Virus record (IMG/VR): IMGVR_UViG_3300037132_000243
Location: 1-29,486 of that record
Length of the DNA stretch: 29,486 bases
DNA from: a virus
Strand: one strand, 5' to 3'
In this document: positions 248 to 9,933 of the stretch, in pieces
Position numbering within the stretch: position 1 is the stretch's first letter
Layout: each line of letters begins with the position of its first letter
Position numbers and translations under genes: made by a program
Notes under the pieces: generated by a model
Databases searched by the model: none
What the model saw: only the letters and a program-made list of their open reading frames with translations
Told to the model about the DNA's origin: nothing

Positions 248-303
248 GCCCTTCGGATTTCTGAATTCGGTGTTCGATGTTGGATGTTCAGTGCTCGATG
301 TTC
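248..303 (-). repeat. Degenerate 7-bp tandem repeat at the 3' end of the GH43 gene
   Basis: Read on the minus strand from 303 down to 248, the DNA divides into eight consecutive 7-mers: GAACATC, GAGCACT, GAACATC, CAACATC, GAACACC, GAATTCA, GAAATCC, GAAGGGC. The core word is GAACAYC. The repeat supplies the last codons and the stop of the hydrolase gene. Similar heptads that translate as NIEH/RTP-like runs are, as I remember, common between genes of Verrucomicrobia-type genomes. That link is recollection, not a search result. Confidence 0.7.
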
Positions 304-1325
304 GCCTTTTTCTCCAGCCGCCAGCTGTCGCGCCACGGCACTTCGAAGCCGGCGGCGGTCAGCTGCACGGGCAACCAGAGGTAGCGCGAGTCGGGGAGGT
401 CGAACTGTTTCCACCGGTCGCCGATGAAGATGAACGTGCCGGGCTGGCCGGCGACAGGCAGGATGCAGGCGCTCTGGCCGTGGAAGGTCAGCACGGCGTC
501 CGGGCCGCGGCACGGGTTGCCCAGTTCCCGCCACGGACCCCAGATCGAGTCCGCCACCGCCGAGCGCGCCGCGTTCGGCGCCCAGCCCGTGCAGTCCGAG
601 GCCATCAGGTAATAACGCCCTTGGTGCTTGAACACCGCGGGCGCCTCCATCGAGCGCCCCTCGAACACGCGCGCAAATTTCCCGGACGGCTTCAGGTAGT
701 CGTCGCTCAGCAGCGCGATGTGCATCGTCTTGTTGTCTTCCGACGCGTGGAAGAGGTAGGCCTTGCCGTCGTCATCCTGGAACACGGTCATGTCGCGGCT
801 CATCGCACCGTCGGGCCGGCAGCTGCCGAGGTAGCGGAACGGGCCGGTGGGTTTGTCGCTGACCGCGACGCCGGCATGCGCGAGCTGATAGTCCTCGGAA
901 TCAATATGCAGCCACATGACGAACTTTTTCGTCGCCTTGTTGAAGAGCACCTTCGGGCGCTCGACGACCTTGCTCTTGTGCAACTCGTGCTGTGGATCAT
1001 CCTGCACCGCGGGCAGCACGTTGCCTTCGCTCTTCCAGTTGAGCAGGTCCTTGGACGAATAGCAGGAGATCCCGATCATTTCCACGCGCGTGCCGCCCCA
1101 GCCCTCGTTGGACTTCGGCGACCAGGTCTGTCCGGTCTTGATCTCGCCATACCAATAATAGGTCTGGTCGTGATAGAGCAGACCGCCGCCGTGTGCGTTG
1201 ATCGGCGCGCCGCTGGTGTCGGTCCAGATTTCGCCCGGCTTGAATTCGGTATGGGTGGCCGGTGCGGCCCGCAGGATGCCGGACAGCAGCCCGGCCGCAA
1301 AGCAGATGCACGCAGTGAATTTCAT
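288..1325 (-). CDS. Secreted glycoside hydrolase family 43-like protein
   Basis: The 345-aa protein starts with an N-terminal signal peptide (MKFTACICFAAGLLSG, cleavage probably near the AAPA at about 20-23). A five-bladed beta-propeller-like pattern follows. GH43-type landmarks are NAHGGGLLYHDQTYYWYGE near residues 43-61, ERPKVLFN near 122, MSRDMTVFQDDDGKAYLF near 175, and SMEAPAVFKHQGRYYLMAS near 225. Such proteins cut arabinose-, xylose- or galactose-containing polysaccharides outside the cytoplasm. The exact substrate cannot be read from the sequence; GH43 subfamilies acting on galactans are possible. The last residues (ANIEH) come from a tandem repeat, so the original C-terminus may have been altered. 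The gene faces away from the phage genes and is taken as chromosomal. Confidence 0.8.
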   Translation of the reverse strand: MKFTACICFAAGLLSGILRAAPATHTEFKPGEIWTDTSGAPINAHGGGLLYHDQTYYWYGEIKTGQTWSPKSNEGWGGTRVEMIGISCYSSKDLLNWKSEGNVLPAVQDDPQHELHKSKVVERPKVLFNKATKKFVMWLHIDSEDYQLAHAGVAVSDKPTGPFRYLGSCRPDGAMSRDMTVFQDDDGKAYLFHASEDNKTMHIALLSDDYLKPSGKFARVFEGRSMEAPAVFKHQGRYYLMASDCTGWAPNAARSAVADSIWGPWRELGNPCRGPDAVLTFHGQSACILPVAGQPGTFIFIGDRWKQFDLPDSRYLWLPVQLTAAGFEVPWRDSWRLEKKANIEH

Positions 1326-1523: not shown

Positions 1524-1542
1524 GTGACAAATCAATTGTCAC
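1524..1542. repeat. Inverted repeat overlapping the integrase stop
   Basis: A perfect 7-bp inverted repeat (GTGACAA, 5-nt spacer, TTGTCAC) spans the integrase stop codon. It could be a weak terminator for the leftward operon or part of the left attachment region. No second copy of a possible att core is visible, because the right end of the element is outside the window. Confidence 0.45.
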
Positions 1543-2627
1543 TGGAGGCGGAATCCGAAATAGAGTTCGGCATCCGCCGGCTTCACGAGCGAGCGATAAT
1601 GTTTGAAAATCATCGTGGGGCTGGTCCCGGCTTCGAACGCGACTTTCCCAACATCTTGAATGGCAGCCACGCGATAACTGATGAAGCTATGCCGCATCAC
1701 GTTCGATTTCCAAGCCGGCAGTTTGGCGTCGTCCAGATCCCCCTGCTTGGTCGTCCATGCAAGGCGGGCTTTCGTCTTCACAGGCGCGATGAGTTCGTCG
1801 GCTGCGCCCCGCGGGCAATGGTCCAAGATGTTCCGCAGGGGCGGCAGGATCGGAATTATGCGCGTGCTGCGCTTCTTGGCTATGCGGGCGGGTATCGTGA
1901 TTTCTTCGCGGAAGTCTGCCCAGGTCAATCGTTCCAGTTCCGCCGTGCGGATACCACCGAAGAAGCCCGCTCCATAGAAGACTAACAATTCCGGACGATG
2001 CTGGGCGATGTGGTTCAGCCACGCGTGGGCCTCGATGGGCGTGAAGATCTCCGGTTCTTCGTCGTCGGTGCGGGCCTTGGTGATCGCTTTCGCTGGATTC
2101 TCCAGCAGCCAGCCGCTCTTGATGCAGAACTCGAAGAACGTCACCCACCCGCGGCGGCGGTTGTTGCGGGCGACCGGCCCCACCCTGCCATCCACCAGCA
2201 GCTCGCGCAGCGCGGCCACGGTAATCTCTTCCAGCTTGCGCCCGGGCAGTTTCTCGATCATGTGATGCAGCACGGAACAACGCAGCGCCGCTAGCGAGGC
2301 TTCGCGGAGTCCCGCGGCCTGTCGATCTTTCAGAAATTCCTCCCACGCCGTTTGCAGGAGCTGGCCTTTTTGAACGTGATGCAGGCAATAGAACTTGGCG
2401 GCGTCCACGAGACGGACACCCTTCGGTAGCATCTCGACGGCTTCGGTGGCGTCGAGCCGGTCGCGCTCGGTGAAGAGACGCACAGGGACGCGGCTCTCGG
2501 CCTCGATACGGCGGATGCGCAGCCAATCTTTCGCCTGCTCCGGCGTATCGAAGTTTGCGCGCTGCCGGCGCAGACCTGTGACGGCGAAATCAGCCTGCCA
2601 TTTGCCGCTGGGTAGATTCCTAATCAC
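1539..2627 (-). CDS. int: Phage-type tyrosine recombinase (integrase)
   Basis: This 362-aa protein has an N-terminal arm-binding-like part (1-60), a core-binding helical domain (about 70-185) and a catalytic domain (about 195-362). Visible catalytic positions are R227 in GGIRTAEL, the beta-hairpin lysine at 251/252 (KKRSTR), R312 in NVMRHSF and the nucleophile Y344 in IFKHYRSLV. The position normally held by His in the HxxR box is N309, and the His/Trp position nine residues before the tyrosine is T335. Both changes are tolerated in some integrase groups. The enzyme would integrate and excise the element. It starts inside the end of the preceding gene (8-nt overlap) and is last in a leftward three-gene operon. 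Its stop faces the chromosomal gene, as expected for an integrase at a prophage edge. Confidence 0.93.
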   Translation of the reverse strand: MIRNLPSGKWQADFAVTGLRRQRANFDTPEQAKDWLRIRRIEAESRVPVRLFTERDRLDATEAVEMLPKGVRLVDAAKFYCLHHVQKGQLLQTAWEEFLKDRQAAGLREASLAALRCSVLHHMIEKLPGRKLEEITVAALRELLVDGRVGPVARNNRRRGWVTFFEFCIKSGWLLENPAKAITKARTDDEEPEIFTPIEAHAWLNHIAQHRPELLVFYGAGFFGGIRTAELERLTWADFREEITIPARIAKKRSTRIIPILPPLRNILDHCPRGAADELIAPVKTKARLAWTTKQGDLDDAKLPAWKSNVMRHSFISYRVAAIQDVGKVAFEAGTSPTMIFKHYRSLVKPADAELYFGFRLQ

Positions 2628-3003
2628 GGTGGCCGCCTTTCCGGCGGGCGGGTTTGGCCGCGTCTTCGGTGCGCGCGGCGATCAGGCGCTGGCGGCGCTG
2701 TTCGGCGGCGTGGCCGAGGCGGACTAGGTTGGTCAGGAACTTCTCCTCGTCGGTGAGTTTGATGATGCGGCCGGCGAAGCGGGCACGCCGGCGGGCGATG
2801 GCAACGCTAACGGTGTGCAGGTTGATCGAGCGGCGCCAGCCGCGGAGCTGCACGCAGTACCAGATCTCTTTGTCGGCGTGCGCGGGCGCGTCGATGGCGG
2901 CGTGCTTGGTCACGCCCCTGACATCGTAGCGGCGATAGAAGTAACCCTTAACCGGACGGCCGCGAACGGCATCAGTTGCAACCTTTCGCTTTTTCATGTT
3001 CAT
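2620..3003 (-). CDS. Hypothetical 127-aa basic protein in the integrase operon
   Basis: I do not recognise this protein. It is very basic, with Lys/Arg clusters at both ends (MNMKKRK and the PARRKGGHRD tail) and a central part with VQLRGWRRSINLHTVSVAIARR and TDEEKFLTNLVRLGHAAEQRRQ. Its start overlaps the stop of the upstream RHH gene as ATGA, and its end overlaps the integrase start by 8 nt, so all three are probably translated in a coupled way. Basic charge and place suggest a DNA-binding partner of the integrase, for example a directionality or accessory factor, but that is inference. The second Met (MKKRK) could also be the start. Confidence 0.7.
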   Translation of the reverse strand: MNMKKRKVATDAVRGRPVKGYFYRRYDVRGVTKHAAIDAPAHADKEIWYCVQLRGWRRSINLHTVSVAIARRRARFAGRIIKLTDEEKFLTNLVRLGHAAEQRRQRLIAARTEDAAKPARRKGGHRD

Positions 3004-3179
3004 CTCCTCGTACCTTTTTTCGCCGCGGCTTCCCTCTCCAGCATCATCTTGGTCAATTCCATATTGACGAATGGCGAGCGGTCCAGCCCGAGGCCGGCGC
3101 GTTCTGCGTCAATCCACCTGACGACCTCTGTAGAGAGGGTGAACGTAAGAGCGGGCTTAATTCGGCGTCCCTTTTTCAT
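3000..3179 (-). CDS. Ribbon-helix-helix (Arc/CopG-type) DNA-binding protein
   Basis: This 59-aa protein is short enough to be missed by usual length filters. The sequence runs MKKGRRIKPALTFTLS, then TEVVRWIDAERAGLGL, then DRSPFVNMELTKMML. That is the RHH order: a beta strand that enters the major groove (PALTFTLS), helix A, a turn and helix B with the SPFVN signature. RHH proteins act as dimers or tetramers on repeated operators. An AGGGAACAGG stretch lies just before the ATG. The stop overlaps the next gene as ATGA. It is the first gene of the leftward operon and sits next to four operator-like words, so self-regulation and control of the integrase are likely. Confidence 0.85.
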   Translation of the reverse strand: MKKGRRIKPALTFTLSTEVVRWIDAERAGLGLDRSPFVNMELTKMMLEREAAAKKGTRR

Positions 3180-3205
3180 CCTGTTCCCTTGTCGCTTTCC
3201 ATGAG

Positions 3206-3273
3206 TGCGTCACAATGTATCACACACTGCATGACAAGCAATATGATTCGGGTTTATTTTCGAGTGTATGACA
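3206..3273. promoter_or_regulatory. Four copies of a 9-bp operator-like word in the divergent control region
   Basis: The words TGCGTCACA (3206-3214), TGTATCACA (3216-3224), TGCATGACA (3228-3236) and TGTATGACA (3265-3273) fit one consensus, TGYRTSACA, all in the same orientation. Start-to-start spacings are 10, 12 and 37 bp. The first three overlap a candidate leftward promoter and the fourth overlaps a candidate rightward one. Direct repeats at near helical-turn spacing are typical of RHH operators, and RHH genes lie on both sides. Confidence 0.65.
3214..3241 (-). promoter_or_regulatory. Candidate leftward sigma70-type promoter
   Basis: On the minus strand TTGCTT (3241-3236) is followed after 16 bp by TACATT (3219-3214). 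This lies about 35 bp before the ATG of the leftward RHH gene and is covered by the operator-like words. Confidence 0.4.
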
Positions 3274-3282
3274 GTTTATTAT
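3253..3282 (+). promoter_or_regulatory. Candidate rightward promoter
   Basis: A TATTAT -10-like box lies at 3277-3282 with a weak TTTATT at 3253-3258 (18-bp spacing). It is about 36 bp before the rightward RHH start, in the most AT-rich stretch nearby. The fourth operator-like word lies in its spacer. The -35 match is poor. Confidence 0.3.
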
Positions 3283-3317
3283 TGAGTCATGCTGTGCCAC
3301 AGAATAGAGATGCACGC

Positions 3318-3521
3318 ATGTCAAACACACTCGACCGACCGAACAAGGTGCCGAACAAAACCCAAAATCTACACCTCCGCATCAGCGGCTTTGTGCGGCA
3401 CCGCCTCGACCGTGAGGCCCTAGACTCCGGCAGAACCATCAGCAGCCTCGTGCAAGAGATGCTGCACCAGCGCTGCCGCAGCAAGCGCAAGTTCCGCGGG
3501 ACCACGGTGCTCGTGGGATGA
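3318..3521 (+). CDS. Second ribbon-helix-helix protein, rightward
   Basis: This 67-aa protein carries the pattern QNLHLRIS (strand), FVRHRLDREALDSG (helix A) and RTISSLVQEMLHQR (helix B), which is a standard RHH fold with an N-terminal tail of about 15 residues and a basic C-terminus (RSKRKFRG). The chosen start is MSNTL; the reading frame is open farther upstream, but that would run into the control region. It is divergent from the other RHH gene, with the operator-like words between them. Two opposed RHH genes recall the Mnt/Arc immunity region of phage P22. A role in the lysogeny switch is inference, not proof. Confidence 0.8.
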   Translation: MSNTLDRPNKVPNKTQNLHLRISGFVRHRLDREALDSGRTISSLVQEMLHQRCRSKRKFRGTTVLVG

Positions 3522-3531
3522 ATCGACGACC

Positions 3532-3714
3532 ATGAAAATGCTTTCGATACCGGAAGTGGCCGTCGAACTGCGCGTGAGCGAAAAGACCATCTGGCGCGAA
3601 CTCCAGGGGACGCCGCCGGCGATGTCCTCGACCAAGATCCGCGGCAACGTGCGGGTTAGTCGTGAGACCGTGAACCGTTACATCGCGCTGCGGACCACGC
3701 AGGGGCAGTGCTGA
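3532..3714 (+). CDS. Excisionase/MerR-like helix-turn-helix protein
   Basis: The 60-aa protein begins MKMLSIPEVAVELRVSEKTIWREL, a clear HTH_17/excisionase-type winged helix: a first helix (IPEVAVEL), then the recognition helix VSEKTIWRELQ. The wing is KIRGNVRVSRETVNRYI, which is the usual R-x-x-x-V-S-R-x-x-V-x-x-Y ending. Such small proteins bend DNA as excisionases or act as early regulators. It lies 10 bp after the RHH gene and is probably in the same transcript. The integrase in this element needs a directionality factor, and this is the best candidate in the window. Confidence 0.8.
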   Translation: MKMLSIPEVAVELRVSEKTIWRELQGTPPAMSSTKIRGNVRVSRETVNRYIALRTTQGQC

Positions 3715-5136: not shown

Positions 5137-5873
5137 TGAAACCCTACTATCAAGACCAGTATGTCACGCTCTTCCATGCACGGCTGGAGGACTTCGCCGA
5201 GCTGCCGCGGGCGGACGCCGCGGTGGTCGATCCCCCTTACGGTTCGACGCGGCTGGCGTGGGACCGGTGGCCGGCGAACTGGCCAAGCTGGATGCTGGCG
5301 GCGGTGCCACAGATGTTCGTCTTCGGCACGCTGCGGGTGTGGATGAACCACGCGCACGAGTTCCAGGGCTGGAAGCTGGCGCAAGACCTCGTGTGGGAGA
5401 AACAGAACGGCAGCGGGCTGCACAACGACCGGTTCCGCTGCGTCCACGAGAGCATCATCCATGTCTACCGCGGGCTGTGGTCGTCGCTCTACCACAAGGC
5501 GCAGGTGACGCACGACGCGCAGAAACGCACCATCCGCCGGCAGCAGAAGCCGGCGCATTGGGGGCAACTCTCTAAGGAAGGGGATTACAGCGTGGCCGAG
5601 GGCGGGCCGCGGCTGATGCGGTCGGTGCTGTTCTGCAAGAACGGCCACAGCGTCGGCGAGAACGAAACCGCCAAGCCGGAGGGCATCATCCGCCCGCTGG
5701 TCGAGTATGCGGTGCGCCCGGGCGGGACGGTCTTGGATCCAATGTGCGGCAGCGGGACGGTGCTGGCGGTCGCCAAGAGCAGCGGGCGGCACGCGATCGG
5801 CATCGAGATGCGCGAAGATCAATGTGAAGTGGCAGCACGGCGCTGCACGCAGGTGATGGCGTTGGTGGTATGA
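5133..5873 (+). CDS. Orphan DNA N4/N6-adenine or -cytosine methyltransferase, beta class
   Basis: The product is 246 aa from the first ATG of ATGATG. Counting from the second ATG, the catalytic motif DPPYG is at 32-36 and the AdoMet-binding motif LDPMCGSGTV at 200-209, with an acidic residue E224 (GIEMRED) beyond it. Catalytic motif first and AdoMet motif last is the beta-class order of the N6_N4_Mtase family. The target-recognition part between them is short, about 100 residues. It transfers a methyl group from AdoMet to an adenine or cytosine amino group. No restriction enzyme gene is near, so it is an orphan phage enzyme that may protect phage DNA or mark it. The longer upstream open frame is rejected as lacking family similarity. 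Confidence 0.88.
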   Translation: MMKPYYQDQYVTLFHARLEDFAELPRADAAVVDPPYGSTRLAWDRWPANWPSWMLAAVPQMFVFGTLRVWMNHAHEFQGWKLAQDLVWEKQNGSGLHNDRFRCVHESIIHVYRGLWSSLYHKAQVTHDAQKRTIRRQQKPAHWGQLSKEGDYSVAEGGPRLMRSVLFCKNGHSVGENETAKPEGIIRPLVEYAVRPGGTVLDPMCGSGTVLAVAKSSGRHAIGIEMREDQCEVAARRCTQVMALVV

Positions 5874-5901: not shown

Positions 5902-6453
5902 ATGATGAACATGATTGGCGATCCGCGGAAGAAGTTTGGTCGGTTGAATGGCTTGCAGAGTCATAAGCTCATTACGATTTTGCAGGAGTTTCCGTTGAAA
6001 GATCTGAAACTGCTCACGGTGGATCAGTTGACGACGCTGCTGCGCACTCCTGAGTATATGGATATGCCCGATCTGTCGAGCGCCTGTGTCGATCATCGGC
6101 TGAAGATGATCGCCGACGAACGCAAACAGGATGCGGAAAAGGCCCAGCAAGCCAAGCTCGCGTCGAAGCTCGCGGCGAAGGTCGCGGCGGTCTCTGCGGC
6201 GAGTCCGGCGCCGGTGACGGTGCAGCCCCTACTGCCGACGGAAGGCAGGACACCGATGCAGTTGCAGCCGGGGCTGACCGCCGTGTCATATTACAAGGAT
6301 TTCGCGTCGCACAAGGAGCTGTACTCGATGGTGCGGCAGGTGGCGCGCGTGCTGCAAAACCTGATTGTAGAACTGTGCGGTAAAGCGTCCGCATCCGAGG
6401 ATCTCGCCGCCATTATCAACCCGCCGCCGCCGCCGGTCGCTAAGAAGGCGTGA
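5902..6453 (+). CDS. Hypothetical 183-aa protein before the RdgC-like gene
   Basis: A GAGG at 5891-5894 favours the ATG at 5902, although 5896 and 5905 are possible. Residues up to about 70 form a compact helical part (LQSHKLITILQEF, LKLLTVDQLTTLLRTPEYM). An Ala/Lys-rich coiled coil follows (AEKAQQAKLASKLAAKVAAV), then a Pro-rich linker, a C-terminal helix (YSMVRQVARVLQNLIVELCG) and a PPPPP tail. I do not recognise the family. Its stop overlaps a GTG of the next gene, so the two probably work together in DNA metabolism. Confidence 0.65.
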   Translation: MMNMIGDPRKKFGRLNGLQSHKLITILQEFPLKDLKLLTVDQLTTLLRTPEYMDMPDLSSACVDHRLKMIADERKQDAEKAQQAKLASKLAAKVAAVSAASPAPVTVQPLLPTEGRTPMQLQPGLTAVSYYKDFASHKELYSMVRQVARVLQNLIVELCGKASASEDLAAIINPPPPPVAKKA

Positions 6454-6458
6454 CCGCT

Positions 6459-8108
6459 ATGGGCTTCAAAAACAAAACGCTGGCGTTCCGCGTGGTGCAG
6501 GTGGGCAGCGAGGGCTGGGAGCGGGAGAAGGCCCTGCTGCCCAAGCTCGCCGATCTGGACCGGAAGCCTGATCCGCTGCCTGTCGTGATGGGCTGGGCGG
6601 CGTGGCGGCACGCCAGGCAGGACGCGACGGGCGACACGGCCCAGCTGTGCGAAGGGGCGGGCGTGGAGCTGCTGCAGCTCGTCGCGGCCTCGAAGAAGGT
6701 GCCGCCGAGTCTGCTGGCGACGGAGCTGGCGCAGGCGGCGGAGGATAAGGAAAAGGACACCGGCAGCCGGATGACGCGCAAGGAGGCCAAGGCGTCCAAG
6801 CAGAACATCTCGGAAATGCTACGCGACGAGGCGCAACTGAGCTATGCCGCGCTGGAGCTGGCTTGGATCAAGCGCGGGCTGGTCGAGCTGGGGCTGACCA
6901 CGGCGGTCAGCGATGTCAACCAGGACACGCTGCGGGCGTGCTCCGCGGGCCTGCATCTGGTGGTCAATCCCGTGACGGCCGCGGGGCTGCTCGGCGAGCA
7001 GGTGCGGGAGTGGCACTACGCCGACTTCGCCACGGGCAACTCCGGCGAGCTGGTGGCGGACGACTACCTGCGCGACTTCCTGCTCTATCTGATGTGGACG
7101 GGGCAGCAGCAAGAGGGCCGCTGGCGCACGGGCGACAACGGCACGCTGGTGGTGCAGCTCGGGTTCGAGATCGGCGGCATGGTGCTGGTCCGTCCTACTG
7201 ATAGCGGGAAAATGAAGGCGGTGACGTTCAAGGCGGGACGCGACTACAAGCTGGCCGAGGTCTGCGCGAAGCTGGCCGAGGGCTACAAACCCAGCAGAGC
7301 CCGCCTGCTGCTGGCGGTGCTGGAAGGTCCGGGCAAGTCGGCCGCGTTCGACTTCGAGCCGGATACCTGGACGTTCCGCGGCGTCAAGCTCGTGGACGCC
7401 GAGGACGCGCCGAGCTGGGCAAACAAGGGCGCGGAGGTGGCGGCGCGGGTGCTAGACGGCATCGCGCTGCACCAGACGCTGGCGGCGCTGCTGCGCGCGT
7501 ATGCCGAGCTGCGTAATGACGGCCCGCGCTGGACGAATATGGTGGAATCCATCAAGTGGTGGGCGTCGGCGGAGACGGCCAAGGCACGCACCGACGACCT
7601 GCTGGCGGCGGAGGGGCTGCGGCGGAAGAAGGATCAACCGGCCGAAGAGGACGACGACGCGCGAGAGAGCCGCGAGGCTGGCGAGTCGGCGCAGCTGACG
7701 CCGGCGGATGTCGCGGATGCGCTGGGACTGGCGTGCCAAGTCATCCAGGATACCGGCAGCGCCACCGAGAAGACGCTGATGCGTCACTTGAAGTGTAGCG
7801 GCAAGGTCGCGGAGATGTTCCTCGCCGCGCTACAGGTCAAGGGCGTCATCGGGGCTAAGACCGGCAGCAAGCCGCGGGAGATCCATCTGTCGGTCCTCAA
7901 CAGCGTGCTGGCTGACCTCAAGAAGCACGGCATCAAGCCGCTGGGCAGCGTCCTGGGCGAAGTGGCGGCGGCGTGCGGGGGCATGGTGACGGGCACGGTC
8001 GGCAGCATCGAGATCAATATGGATAAGCCGTGCTCGAAGTGCGGCAAGGGCGGGGCGTGCGGCAATGGGAAGTGCCTGACCTGCAACACACCGAAACGCG
8101 GGAAGTGA
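6459..8108 (+). CDS. RdgC-like protein with C-terminal FtsK-gamma-like winged helix and Cys cluster
   Basis: From the ATG at 6459 the protein has 549 aa, longer than the roughly 300-aa bacterial RdgC. The start MGFKNKTLAFRV matches the FKNL-type RdgC start. Residues 82-165 follow the RdgC pattern: PPSLL, a charged helix with RMTRKEAKASKQ, a stretch like SEMLRDEAQL, then a strand-rich part. Residues 205-285 include FLLYLMW and FKAGRDYKLAEV. Residues about 433-477 (ATEKTLMRHLKCSGKVAE, then GVIGAKTGSKPREIHL) resemble the gamma winged helix of FtsK, including the GSKPRE ending. Residues 525-542 hold five cysteines (CSKCGKGGACGNGKC, then LTC), probably a zinc site. RdgC binds double-stranded DNA and restrains RecA. 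A recombination or replication role is likely; the fusion is unusual. The upstream GTG at 6450 is an alternative start. Confidence 0.68.
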   Translation: MGFKNKTLAFRVVQVGSEGWEREKALLPKLADLDRKPDPLPVVMGWAAWRHARQDATGDTAQLCEGAGVELLQLVAASKKVPPSLLATELAQAAEDKEKDTGSRMTRKEAKASKQNISEMLRDEAQLSYAALELAWIKRGLVELGLTTAVSDVNQDTLRACSAGLHLVVNPVTAAGLLGEQVREWHYADFATGNSGELVADDYLRDFLLYLMWTGQQQEGRWRTGDNGTLVVQLGFEIGGMVLVRPTDSGKMKAVTFKAGRDYKLAEVCAKLAEGYKPSRARLLLAVLEGPGKSAAFDFEPDTWTFRGVKLVDAEDAPSWANKGAEVAARVLDGIALHQTLAALLRAYAELRNDGPRWTNMVESIKWWASAETAKARTDDLLAAEGLRRKKDQPAEEDDDARESREAGESAQLTPADVADALGLACQVIQDTGSATEKTLMRHLKCSGKVAEMFLAALQVKGVIGAKTGSKPREIHLSVLNSVLADLKKHGIKPLGSVLGEVAAACGGMVTGTVGSIEINMDKPCSKCGKGGACGNGKCLTCNTPKRGK

Positions 8109-8301: not shown

Positions 8302-9354
8302 ATGAGCGTCAAGACCCTCGGGCACTATCATTGGCATAAGGTGTGGCACGACGATCTGATGTCGGACGGGGGCTATGCCCGCGTCGGTCTGTTGGAGCGC
8401 GGTGCATATTCGACGCTGTGCAACTTGGCCGGATCGACCAATAACAGCGGCAGTATGAGGGTTGGCATGGACGCGGCGCTGAACATCCGCACGGCCGCGG
8501 AGTGGTTGGTGGACGTCGTTCCCGGCGCCGGAGAGCGTAAAGACCGCTGCAAGGCTAACCGTGCGTTGCTGCGTACGCTGGTCAAGGCGGGGCTGCTGGT
8601 GGTGCGCGGCGAGAAGCTGTGCATCAGCTCGTGGGCGGAGGAGCAGAAGTGTGCGCCCAGCATGGAGGCGGCGCGACAGCGACGTTGCCGTGCGTTGCGT
8701 AACAAGGATCTCAGCGCCGGCGATGAGGGGGGGCGCGGAATGGGAGAATCTCCGCGCGAATTTTTCGCGGCCGTTCCTCCGCCGGCCGCCGGCCCCAGAG
8801 GGGCGGCAGAGCCGCCCCTCCCCCCCTCGACTTCGACCGATTTCGAGGGGATTGTGACACATCACGCAGAGCGTGACATGTCACACAGAGGAGAGGCAGA
8901 GGAGATCGAAGACGAAAGACGAAAAAAAGAGTCCTTCGACTCTCGAACTTCGATTTCGAAAGAAGGCGCGGACGCCTCGACGGGGGGGAGGGGCGGCTCT
9001 GCCGCCGGAAGCGATCGGAGCAGCCCCATGCGTGCCCTGGTGGATCCCAAGCTGTTCCCGTTCTGGCCGCAAGACGAAAAGGATGAAGCAGCTTTTGAGA
9101 GATTGGAATACGAGCAGCTCGTCGCCGCGGCGATGGATCTGTGCAAGACCTGCAAGACGTTCGATAAAAACACCTACAGCCGCCAGCTGCGGCTGATGGA
9201 AGCCCGCTACGGGCAGGAGCAAGCGGCGTGGTGGTTCAAGAAGGCGCTGGGGAAGGTGCACCGCGCCATCGTCGACAAGATCGCCCGCAAGCCTGCCGCG
9301 TTGATGAATCATGAGCTTGAAAAGTGTGCGCAAGGACTCCCAAACAGCCCGTAA
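8302..9354 (+). CDS. Phage replisome-organizer-like replication protein
   Basis: The 350-aa protein has an N-terminal winged-helix-like domain (about 1-125). It starts WHKVWHDDLMSDGGYARVG, goes on with RGAYSTLCNLAGSTNNSGSM, and ends LLRTLVKAGLLVVRGEKLCISSW. This is the layout of phage replisome-organizer N-termini that bind the origin. A long linker of low complexity (about 160-240) follows, then a helical C-terminal domain (PFWPQDEKDEAAFERLEYEQL and QEQAAWWFKKALGKVHRAI) that could recruit the helicase. The linker DNA carries strong palindromes and short repeats, as in lambda O, where the origin lies inside the gene. The place after the RdgC-like gene and before a nucleotide phosphohydrolase fits replication. 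The family call is by pattern only. Confidence 0.55.
   Translation: MSVKTLGHYHWHKVWHDDLMSDGGYARVGLLERGAYSTLCNLAGSTNNSGSMRVGMDAALNIRTAAEWLVDVVPGAGERKDRCKANRALLRTLVKAGLLVVRGEKLCISSWAEEQKCAPSMEAARQRRCRALRNKDLSAGDEGGRGMGESPREFFAAVPPPAAGPRGAAEPPLPPSTSTDFEGIVTHHAERDMSHRGEAEEIEDERRKKESFDSRTSISKEGADASTGGRGGSAAGSDRSSPMRALVDPKLFPFWPQDEKDEAAFERLEYEQLVAAAMDLCKTCKTFDKNTYSRQLRLMEARYGQEQAAWWFKKALGKVHRAIVDKIARKPAALMNHELEKCAQGLPNSP
8797..9006. other. Candidate replication origin inside the replication gene
   Basis: The stretch holds a perfect 10-bp stem with a 3-nt loop (8798-8820) and a 14-nt hairpin with 12 matches (8854-8867 with 8871-8884, loop AGA). It also has a 25-bp perfect long-range inverted repeat (8802-8826 with 8982-9006) and three CTTCGA-to-TCGA words (8831-8846, 8934-8946, 8948-8959). 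A purine-rich, A-rich run lies at 8885-8932. It encodes only a low-complexity linker, so the DNA, not the protein, seems constrained. Confidence 0.5.
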
Positions 9355-9369
9355 AACGAAAGTTGAACT

Positions 9370-9933
9370 ATGACGAAGAACTACAAAATGACCCCCTGGT
9401 GCCAGACCTACACCGGCGTGCTGTTCTACCCGCTCGAACCGGACGCGGAGGATATTTGCATCGAGGACATCGCGCACCATCTGGCGATTATCAACCGCTT
9501 CGGCGGGGCGAGCCGCGTACCGATTTCGGTGGCGGATCATTCCGTTCTCGTGGCCGGCGAAATGCCGGCGCATCTGGCCCTGTGGGGGCTGCTGCACGAT
9601 GCCAGCGAGGCGTATCTGATCGACCTGCCGCGGCCCGTTAAATACAGCCCCGAGCTGGTGGGCTATCGGAAGGTCGAGGCGATGCTGCAGGCGATGATCT
9701 ACGCGAAGTTCGGCTTGACCGGTCCCGAGCCGGCGGAGTTGAAGCTGGTGGATGACCAGATGCTGATGACCGAGCAGCGCGACCTGATGGGACCGCAAAC
9801 CGAGCCCTGGGCGTGCCAAGCTCAACCGTATACGTCAATCGTCTATCCGCTGTCGTGGCAGTCGGCGGAATCCGTGTTTCTGTTTTGGATGCGCCGGCTG
9901 ACGAATGGGAGCGCGCATGGCCACGCCCGCTAA
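9370..9933 (+). CDS. HD-domain phosphohydrolase, YfbR-like nucleotidase
   Basis: The 187-aa protein has the HD pattern: H57 in VADHSVLV, H76-D77 in LLHDASEAYLIDLPRPVK, and an acidic pair D128/D129 in KLVDDQML. The sequence ISVADHSV and HDASEAYLIDLP is typical of the YfbR/5'-deoxyribonucleotidase group, which removes phosphate from dNMPs with a divalent metal. In phages such enzymes tune nucleotide pools. The gene follows the replication gene after 15 bp and precedes a small unknown gene that overlaps its end. Specificity cannot be read from the sequence. Confidence 0.75.
   Translation: MTKNYKMTPWCQTYTGVLFYPLEPDAEDICIEDIAHHLAIINRFGGASRVPISVADHSVLVAGEMPAHLALWGLLHDASEAYLIDLPRPVKYSPELVGYRKVEAMLQAMIYAKFGLTGPEPAELKLVDDQMLMTEQRDLMGPQTEPWACQAQPYTSIVYPLSWQSAESVFLFWMRRLTNGSAHGHAR

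Follow-up and report, generated by a model that had tools for sequence, protein, structure and literature searches.

A divergent pair of ribbon-helix-helix genes as a candidate lysogeny switch in a temperate tailed phage

A prophage locus of a temperate tailed phage carries two small divergent genes for ribbon-helix-helix (RHH) proteins, RHH1 at the head of an integrase operon and RHH2 at the head of an early operon, and we put at about 55% the probability that this locus is the immunity or early-decision switch of the phage, with the two RHH proteins replacing CI and Cro. To our knowledge, nearly all of the bacterial prophages that have been studied are kept dormant by helix-turn-helix repressors. 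Many prophage repressors of that kind are cut in the SOS response. Here we describe the gene order and gene overlaps at the locus, the RHH identity of its two proteins (firm for RHH2, moderate for RHH1) and a family of over-represented words between them, in a window that is without a CI-type gene; the architecture recurs beside other integrases and alternates with XRE/CI modules in the same slot. We regard it as an even bet that these features mark a widespread class of Verrucomicrobiota-type temperate phages in which divergent RHH pairs serve as the primary switch, RHH and XRE/CI cassettes interchange and induction proceeds without CI-type autocleavage. A recurrent, exchangeable RHH-pair module would, if real, be an independent solution to the lysis–lysogeny decision; searches for CI would miss the immunity genes of the phages that carry it, and it would leave to be explained how a repressor of 59 aa is inactivated when it has no domain of protease type. 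The pair and its words are also small, testable parts for a synthetic bistable switch.

Setting, gene order and protein identity

The window, by which we mean the whole stretch of 29,486 bp that was analysed, is a virus record of the class linear or fragment. Its bases from 1 to about 1,500 resemble host flank; a tailed-phage prophage begins at the integrase and extends rightward through early genes, a DNA methyltransferase, terminases, a portal-type connector and a major head protein, and the window runs out within late genes, the right end of the prophage being absent from the record. An ORF of the host flank (288–1325, minus strand) matches one in an Opitutae genome, with 61–65% identity over the matched pieces only, which suggests a Verrucomicrobiota host; we take the virus to be integrated in a bacterium of Verrucomicrobia type. 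The only named phages that the integrase of the window matches are Akkermansia phages, and its relatives in genomes are mostly from Verrucomicrobiota. TerL relatives are too distant to say anything on the RHH locus. Other genes of the prophage include an orphan DNA methyltransferase gene of N6/N4 type among the early genes (5139–5873; PF01555, E = 1.5e-23), a gene for a 552-aa protein (6450–8108) with weak RdgC-like and FtsK-gamma-like stretches, for which a single-sequence scan gave no relative among phages or viral contigs, and a gene (9370–9933) whose product matches phage deoxyribonucleoside 5′-monophosphate phosphatases (phrog_318, E = 2e-53).

Three genes make up the leftward operon. RHH1 (59 aa; 3000–3179, minus strand), a probable RHH repressor, is preceded by a Shine–Dalgarno-like AAGGGAA, and its end overlaps the start of orf127 (2620–3003, minus strand), which in turn overlaps the last gene, a tyrosine integrase (1539–2627, minus strand; phrog_1 integrase, E = 4e-29). 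On this layout, RHH1–orf127–integrase is predicted to be a translationally coupled operon headed by RHH1. We found no family match for orf127 in Pfam, PHROG or NCBIfam, toxins included, and its slot holds different ORFs in two related loci with RHH pairs (L075 and L082; related loci are given L numbers throughout); it is possibly a lysogenically expressed accessory gene. In three related loci with XRE repressors (L040, L044 and L090), small signal-peptide- or lipoprotein-like genes sit between the repressor and the integrase, a position analogous to that of orf127, and these are possible lysogenically expressed exclusion genes.

The rightward operon is headed by RHH2 (67 aa; 3318–3521, plus strand), an Arc-like RHH gene in a Cro-like position, and its second gene (3532–3714, plus strand) encodes a 60-aa excisionase-like HTH_17 protein (PF12728, E = 4e-6; phrog_66, E = 2e-6; TIGR01764, E = 4e-4). 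The excisionase-like gene stands where an ant antirepressor gene would be expected downstream of an Arc-like gene; no recognisable ant gene is there, and none of the early ORFs scanned has a family match that suggests Ant, although an antirepressor of divergent sequence may escape such a match. An earlier note on this DNA, made from the letters and ORFs alone, had placed a 59-aa RHH gene at the head of the leftward integrase operon and a 67-aa RHH gene at the head of the rightward early operon, and both placements are borne out, with the RHH identity of the first being moderate. The same note saw no CI-type repressor and advised a search for a larger one in the rest of the element; our search of the window in all six frames for HTH_3 and Peptidase_S24, with positive controls included, was empty throughout, the window being a prophage fragment that lacks its right end.

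RHH2 is, as judged from its sequence, clearly an RHH protein. It matches phrog_582 ‘Arc-like repressor’ (E = 9e-4) and, weakly, PF07878 (E = 0.02), and it reaches 14.2 bits against an RHH_1-derived hidden Markov model (HMM) built from 28 PF01402 matches, a score that none of 3,000 shuffles of the protein equalled; its NCBIfam match to BrnA (E = 0.008) is far below the curated cut-off. RHH1 is probably an RHH protein, with moderate support. Against the same 28-sequence HMM it scores 8.1 bits, reached by 2 of 3,000 self-shuffles; a smaller HMM, made from 8 diverse phage sequences, gave it no support (371 of 2,000 shuffles as good), Pfam and PHROG gave no match, and its NCBIfam matches are weak and far below curated cut-offs (VapB, E = 0.005; MazE, E = 0.12). 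A single-sequence model of RHH1 shows an extended segment followed by two helices (pLDDT 73), and an alignment with 17 further RHH proteins from phages covers its strand and helices. Foldseek searches with single-sequence models returned non-significant matches only, many of them to RHH proteins (ParD1 for RHH1; Arc, CopG, AtaR, CdbA, AvtR and MatP for RHH2).

Close homologues of the two proteins were found neither in viral contigs nor in a sample of 338/388 genomes of the phylum, and named phages gave no significant match, the single hit for RHH2 being at E = 0.3. The two proteins are 16% identical to each other, the level of random pairs drawn between loci (17%); BLASTP gives no alignment between them, and inspection by eye shows different residues in their predicted strands.

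Operator-like words and candidate promoters

RHH1 and RHH2 share an intergenic region of 138 bp in which the word TGYRTSACA occurs exactly four times on the plus strand, beginning at 3206, 3216, 3228 and 3265. All four emerge from the word count and the motif search: word 1 (TGCGTCACA, 3206–3214), word 2 (TGTATCACA, 3216–3224), which contains TATCACA, word 3 (TGCATGACA, 3228–3236) and word 4 (TGTATGACA, 3265–3273). Words 2 and 3 overlap candidate promoters described below. The whole window holds seven occurrences, against 1.68 expected. When the window was scanned with a position weight matrix (PWM), the intergenic region was the top cluster and two weaker copies were added, a fifth with palindromic arms (TGTGCCACA, 3293–3301, plus strand), which the motif search also recovers, and a sixth at the start codon of RHH2 (TGTTTGACA, 3319–3327, minus strand).

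To judge significance, we shuffled these 138 bp with dinucleotides preserved and looked for the best word in each shuffle. The strictest of the early tests, which accepted every 9-mer pattern that was fixed at six columns and present four times, gave a P value of about 0.03. An information-content motif search for four sites on one strand was equalled by 0 of 60 and 1 of 60 shuffles in two runs; with both strands allowed the four-site result was weaker (5 of 60 and 3 of 60), and with five sites no shuffle of 60 was as good, also when both strands were allowed. The earlier note had stressed that the four copies share one orientation. The copies themselves stand and beat shuffles, but the word is a near-dyad, TGY-N3-RCA (TGT-N3-ACA), that matches on both strands, so a common orientation carries little information and we dropped it as evidence. 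Words 1–3 are spaced by 10 and 12 bp, which puts them on about one helix face, and word 4 lies 37 bp further. A second small cluster (8853–8887) lies within the coding region of a 350-aa ORF and is made up of two minus-strand words, TGTGTCACA and TGTGTGACA, with a copy bearing one mismatch in between, and of the palindrome GTGACATGTCAC; it is either chance or a distant second operator.

Two sigma-70-like candidate promoters were found in the region against 0.5 expected, both of them rightward and defined by consensus match only: ATCACA-17-TATGAT (3219–3247, plus strand), whose −35-like box is overlapped by word 2, and ATGACA-18-TATTTT (3231–3260, plus strand), whose −35-like box is overlapped by word 3. 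No leftward site resembling the sigma-70 consensus was found between RHH1 and RHH2, and the claim that the words overlap candidate promoters for both directions is accordingly retained for the rightward direction alone.

RHH pairs and XRE/CI regulators in related prophages

Relatives of the integrase were gathered from viral contigs and from genomes; for the contigs, a single-sequence scan gave no matches and an alignment-based search succeeded. At five of the closest of these loci (L039, L040, L041, L044 and L090), Pfam identifies the same-strand regulator upstream of int as XRE/CI type, either adjoining int or one or more ORFs away. That of L039 carries HTH_3 and S24, with S24 confirmed for L039 only, and L039 and L041 also have a divergent HTH_17 excisionase-like gene. 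A scan with home-made HMMs adds XRE regulators at L042, L043, L047, L078–L080, L147, L169 and L179. Upstream of many integrases of the family that come from genomes, no regulator at all can be recognised. The divergent regulators of the window, between the int operon and the early/xis operon, occupy the same slot as XRE/CI in these sister prophages, which places RHH1 in the CI slot and RHH2 with its HTH_17 neighbour on the Cro/Xis side.

A phrog_582 search of related records and HMM scans showed that at least five further integrase clades have RHH pairs next to the integrase, four of them divergent and one tandem. The divergent groups are L075/L231/L232/L233 (integrases 64–69% identical), L082, L081/L083/L084 and L073/L076, and the tandem one is L065. 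When about 11,000 ORFs from all loci were scanned, the close RHH pairs reported were those of these groups and one convergent combination in L084. A search of named phages with the RHH proteins of L082 and L076 gave no match. L075 and L082 share the order of the window, int-orf-RHH with a divergent RHH gene, and in both the small gene after the second RHH gene looks HTH-like by eye, with no Pfam match; an HTH_17 gene follows the pair in L081 and also, by HMM, in L065. At L081/L083, L084, L073 and L076 the integrase points toward the RHH pair and is not co-transcribed with either gene. The 38.9-kb record of L065 has no HTH_3 repressor; in it, two RHH genes and an HTH_17 gene (7256–7823) immediately follow the integrase in a tandem arrangement.

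Exchange is seen at L082. Its integrase shares 70% identity with the integrases of L078 and L079, yet L082 has an RHH pair and the other two have XRE-orf-int. As RHH pair and XRE replace each other at one locus, they probably do the same job. No HTH_3 match was found in any of the 11 RHH-pair records, the window included, several of which are 34–39 kb long (up to 38.9 kb); the ten XRE comparison records were all HTH_3-positive by selection, so only the 0 of 11 figure is informative.

The two RHH partners within a locus are 24–44% identical in eight of eight other loci, against 17 ± 6% between loci, which suggests shared operator recognition in those eight. The window pair, only 16% identical, makes a shared operator less certain there than in the relatives; of our own findings, this one counts most against the switch model for the window phage. 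Several of the RHH-pair loci have repeats of their own, spaced by 10–12 bp. Repeated words beat shuffles in L073, L075, L076 and L081/L083, and in L082 when both strands are counted; the same test gave no significant repeat between the RHH genes of L084 and L232. Between the RHH genes of L073 lie three exact copies of ATTACGTAA; L081/L083 have 10-bp tandem repeats and the words of L082 are 10 bp apart. In L076 (2880–2992), palindromic words of the TGCGCATTC type occur in four copies at spacings of 39, 12 and 12 bp, which mirror the 10, 12 and 37 bp of the window.

The proposed switch, its alternatives and known systems

The RHH pair of the window probably carries out CI/Cro-like logic with RHH proteins. 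What we infer from the arrangement, namely binding, direction of control, bistability and a route of induction, would run as follows. In the lysogen, RHH1 would be co-transcribed with the integrase, and its dimers would occupy the TGT-N3-ACA array cooperatively, about one helical turn apart, keeping the rightward early promoter or promoters off while also tuning the promoter of RHH1 itself. After infection or induction, RHH2 would be made first from the rightward operon, together with the excisionase-like protein; acting like Cro or Arc, it would shut the RHH1–orf127–int operon and later limit its own. Because the searches gave no S24 domain, induction would have to take another route than CI-type autocleavage. 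A lysogeny switch built from two Arc/Mnt-type proteins had been suggested in the earlier note, and we retain the switch as the best available reading, its mechanism being inferred: the CI slot, the recurring divergent RHH pairs and the lack of HTH_3 speak for it, and the 16% identity of the window pair leaves a shared operator less certain. Also counting against the switch are the moderate RHH assignment of RHH1, the failure to find a leftward promoter-like site or close homologues of either protein, the missing right end of the prophage and the non-significant repeat searches at L084 and L232. ‘Arc/Mnt-type’ holds as an analogy, in that the pair is divergent and RHH, and not as membership, there being no identifiable ant or C2-type repressor gene.

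Several other readings of the locus have to be weighed. It could be a secondary immunity region like immI of P22, with the primary repressor encoded further right, in the part of the prophage that the sequence does not reach, as the record is a fragment that ends in late genes and as in P22 the Mnt/Arc pair exists alongside C2 (PMC11016777). We consider this unlikely, because the pair lies at the end where the integrase is, in the position that CI/XRE holds in sister prophages, the ten other RHH-pair records, several of 34–39 kb, are without an HTH_3 match, and the gene after RHH2 is excisionase-like, with no family match in the early region that points to Ant. Somewhat more doubtful still is that RHH1 and RHH2 are two separate autoregulators, of the integrase operon and the early operon respectively, without cross-repression or bistability. 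Autorepression is common among RHH proteins (PMC5569661) and the two proteins are not paralogue-like; against this, one word family spans the shared 138 bp and overlaps the rightward −35-like boxes, and the partners in relatives are paralogue-like, so that operators are probably shared there.

The words might also be chance or the site of a host regulator, with the RHH proteins acting elsewhere, for which the P value of the strictest early test and the second cluster in coding sequence can be cited. We think this very improbable given that the motif search beats nearly all shuffles, that the intergenic cluster is the best of the window and that analogous repeats occur at other RHH-pair loci. 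Equally improbable is that RHH1 is an antitoxin-type protein, orf127 its toxin and the proximity of the integrase incidental: the weak NCBIfam matches of RHH1 (VapB, MazE) and RHH2 (BrnA) point that way, whereas orf127 has no toxin-family match, the ORF in its slot differs in L075 and L082, and recurring divergent RHH partners suit a switch better. With no recognisable toxin gene paired with RHH1, the toxin–antitoxin reading was rejected.

The switch that we favour has partial counterparts among known systems. In phage P22, mnt and arc are encoded divergently. The likeness of immI to the window lies in two small RHH proteins of a temperate phage, Mnt being linked to lysogeny and Arc to the lytic cycle (PMC11016777, PMC7549136). 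The P22 region differs as a secondary one that regulates ant, with the C2 repressor elsewhere; the window pair lies beside int/xis in the primary CI/Cro slot, RHH1 belongs to the integrase operon, and neither an ant nor a C2-type gene is identifiable in the window. Lambda-type CI/Cro and the XRE/CI modules of L039, L041, L044, L078 and L079 hold the same position upstream of int, and some of these modules have, like the window, a divergent small regulator and HTH_17 on the early side; the window differs from them in having an RHH fold in place of helix-turn-helix and no S24 autocleavage domain.

Our literature search, which was thin on subscription journals, turned up no report of a bacterial phage whose primary switch is a divergent RHH pair. 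RHH dimers bind cooperatively at multiple operators, and one RHH lysogeny repressor, F55 of SSV1, has been studied by experiment (PMC5569661, PMC9608457). This 55-aa protein resembles our proposal in keeping lysogeny through repeated short operator words at early promoters and its own (PMC9608457, PMC5569661), with sensing through RadA proposed there; it differs in that one RHH protein acts, a divergent RHH partner not having been reported, in an archaeal host and on another operator. A point against our reading is that f55 can be deleted from SSV1 with infectivity kept (PMC9608457). In Pf prophages, insertion of an Arc-family gene removes the repressor C gene in 6.6% of cases, which, according to the authors, may imply a distinct regulatory mechanism (PMC7549136); these are filamentous phages, with an Arc-family gene at the locus and a divergent pair not described. 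Omega (ParB) of plasmid pSM19035 is an RHH protein that acts on arrays of short 5′-WATCACW-3′ repeats (PMC9499535). Omega differs as a plasmid partition and copy-number regulator with contiguous 7-bp repeats, and the TATCACA contained in word 2 of the window is a resemblance that we take as a lead only.
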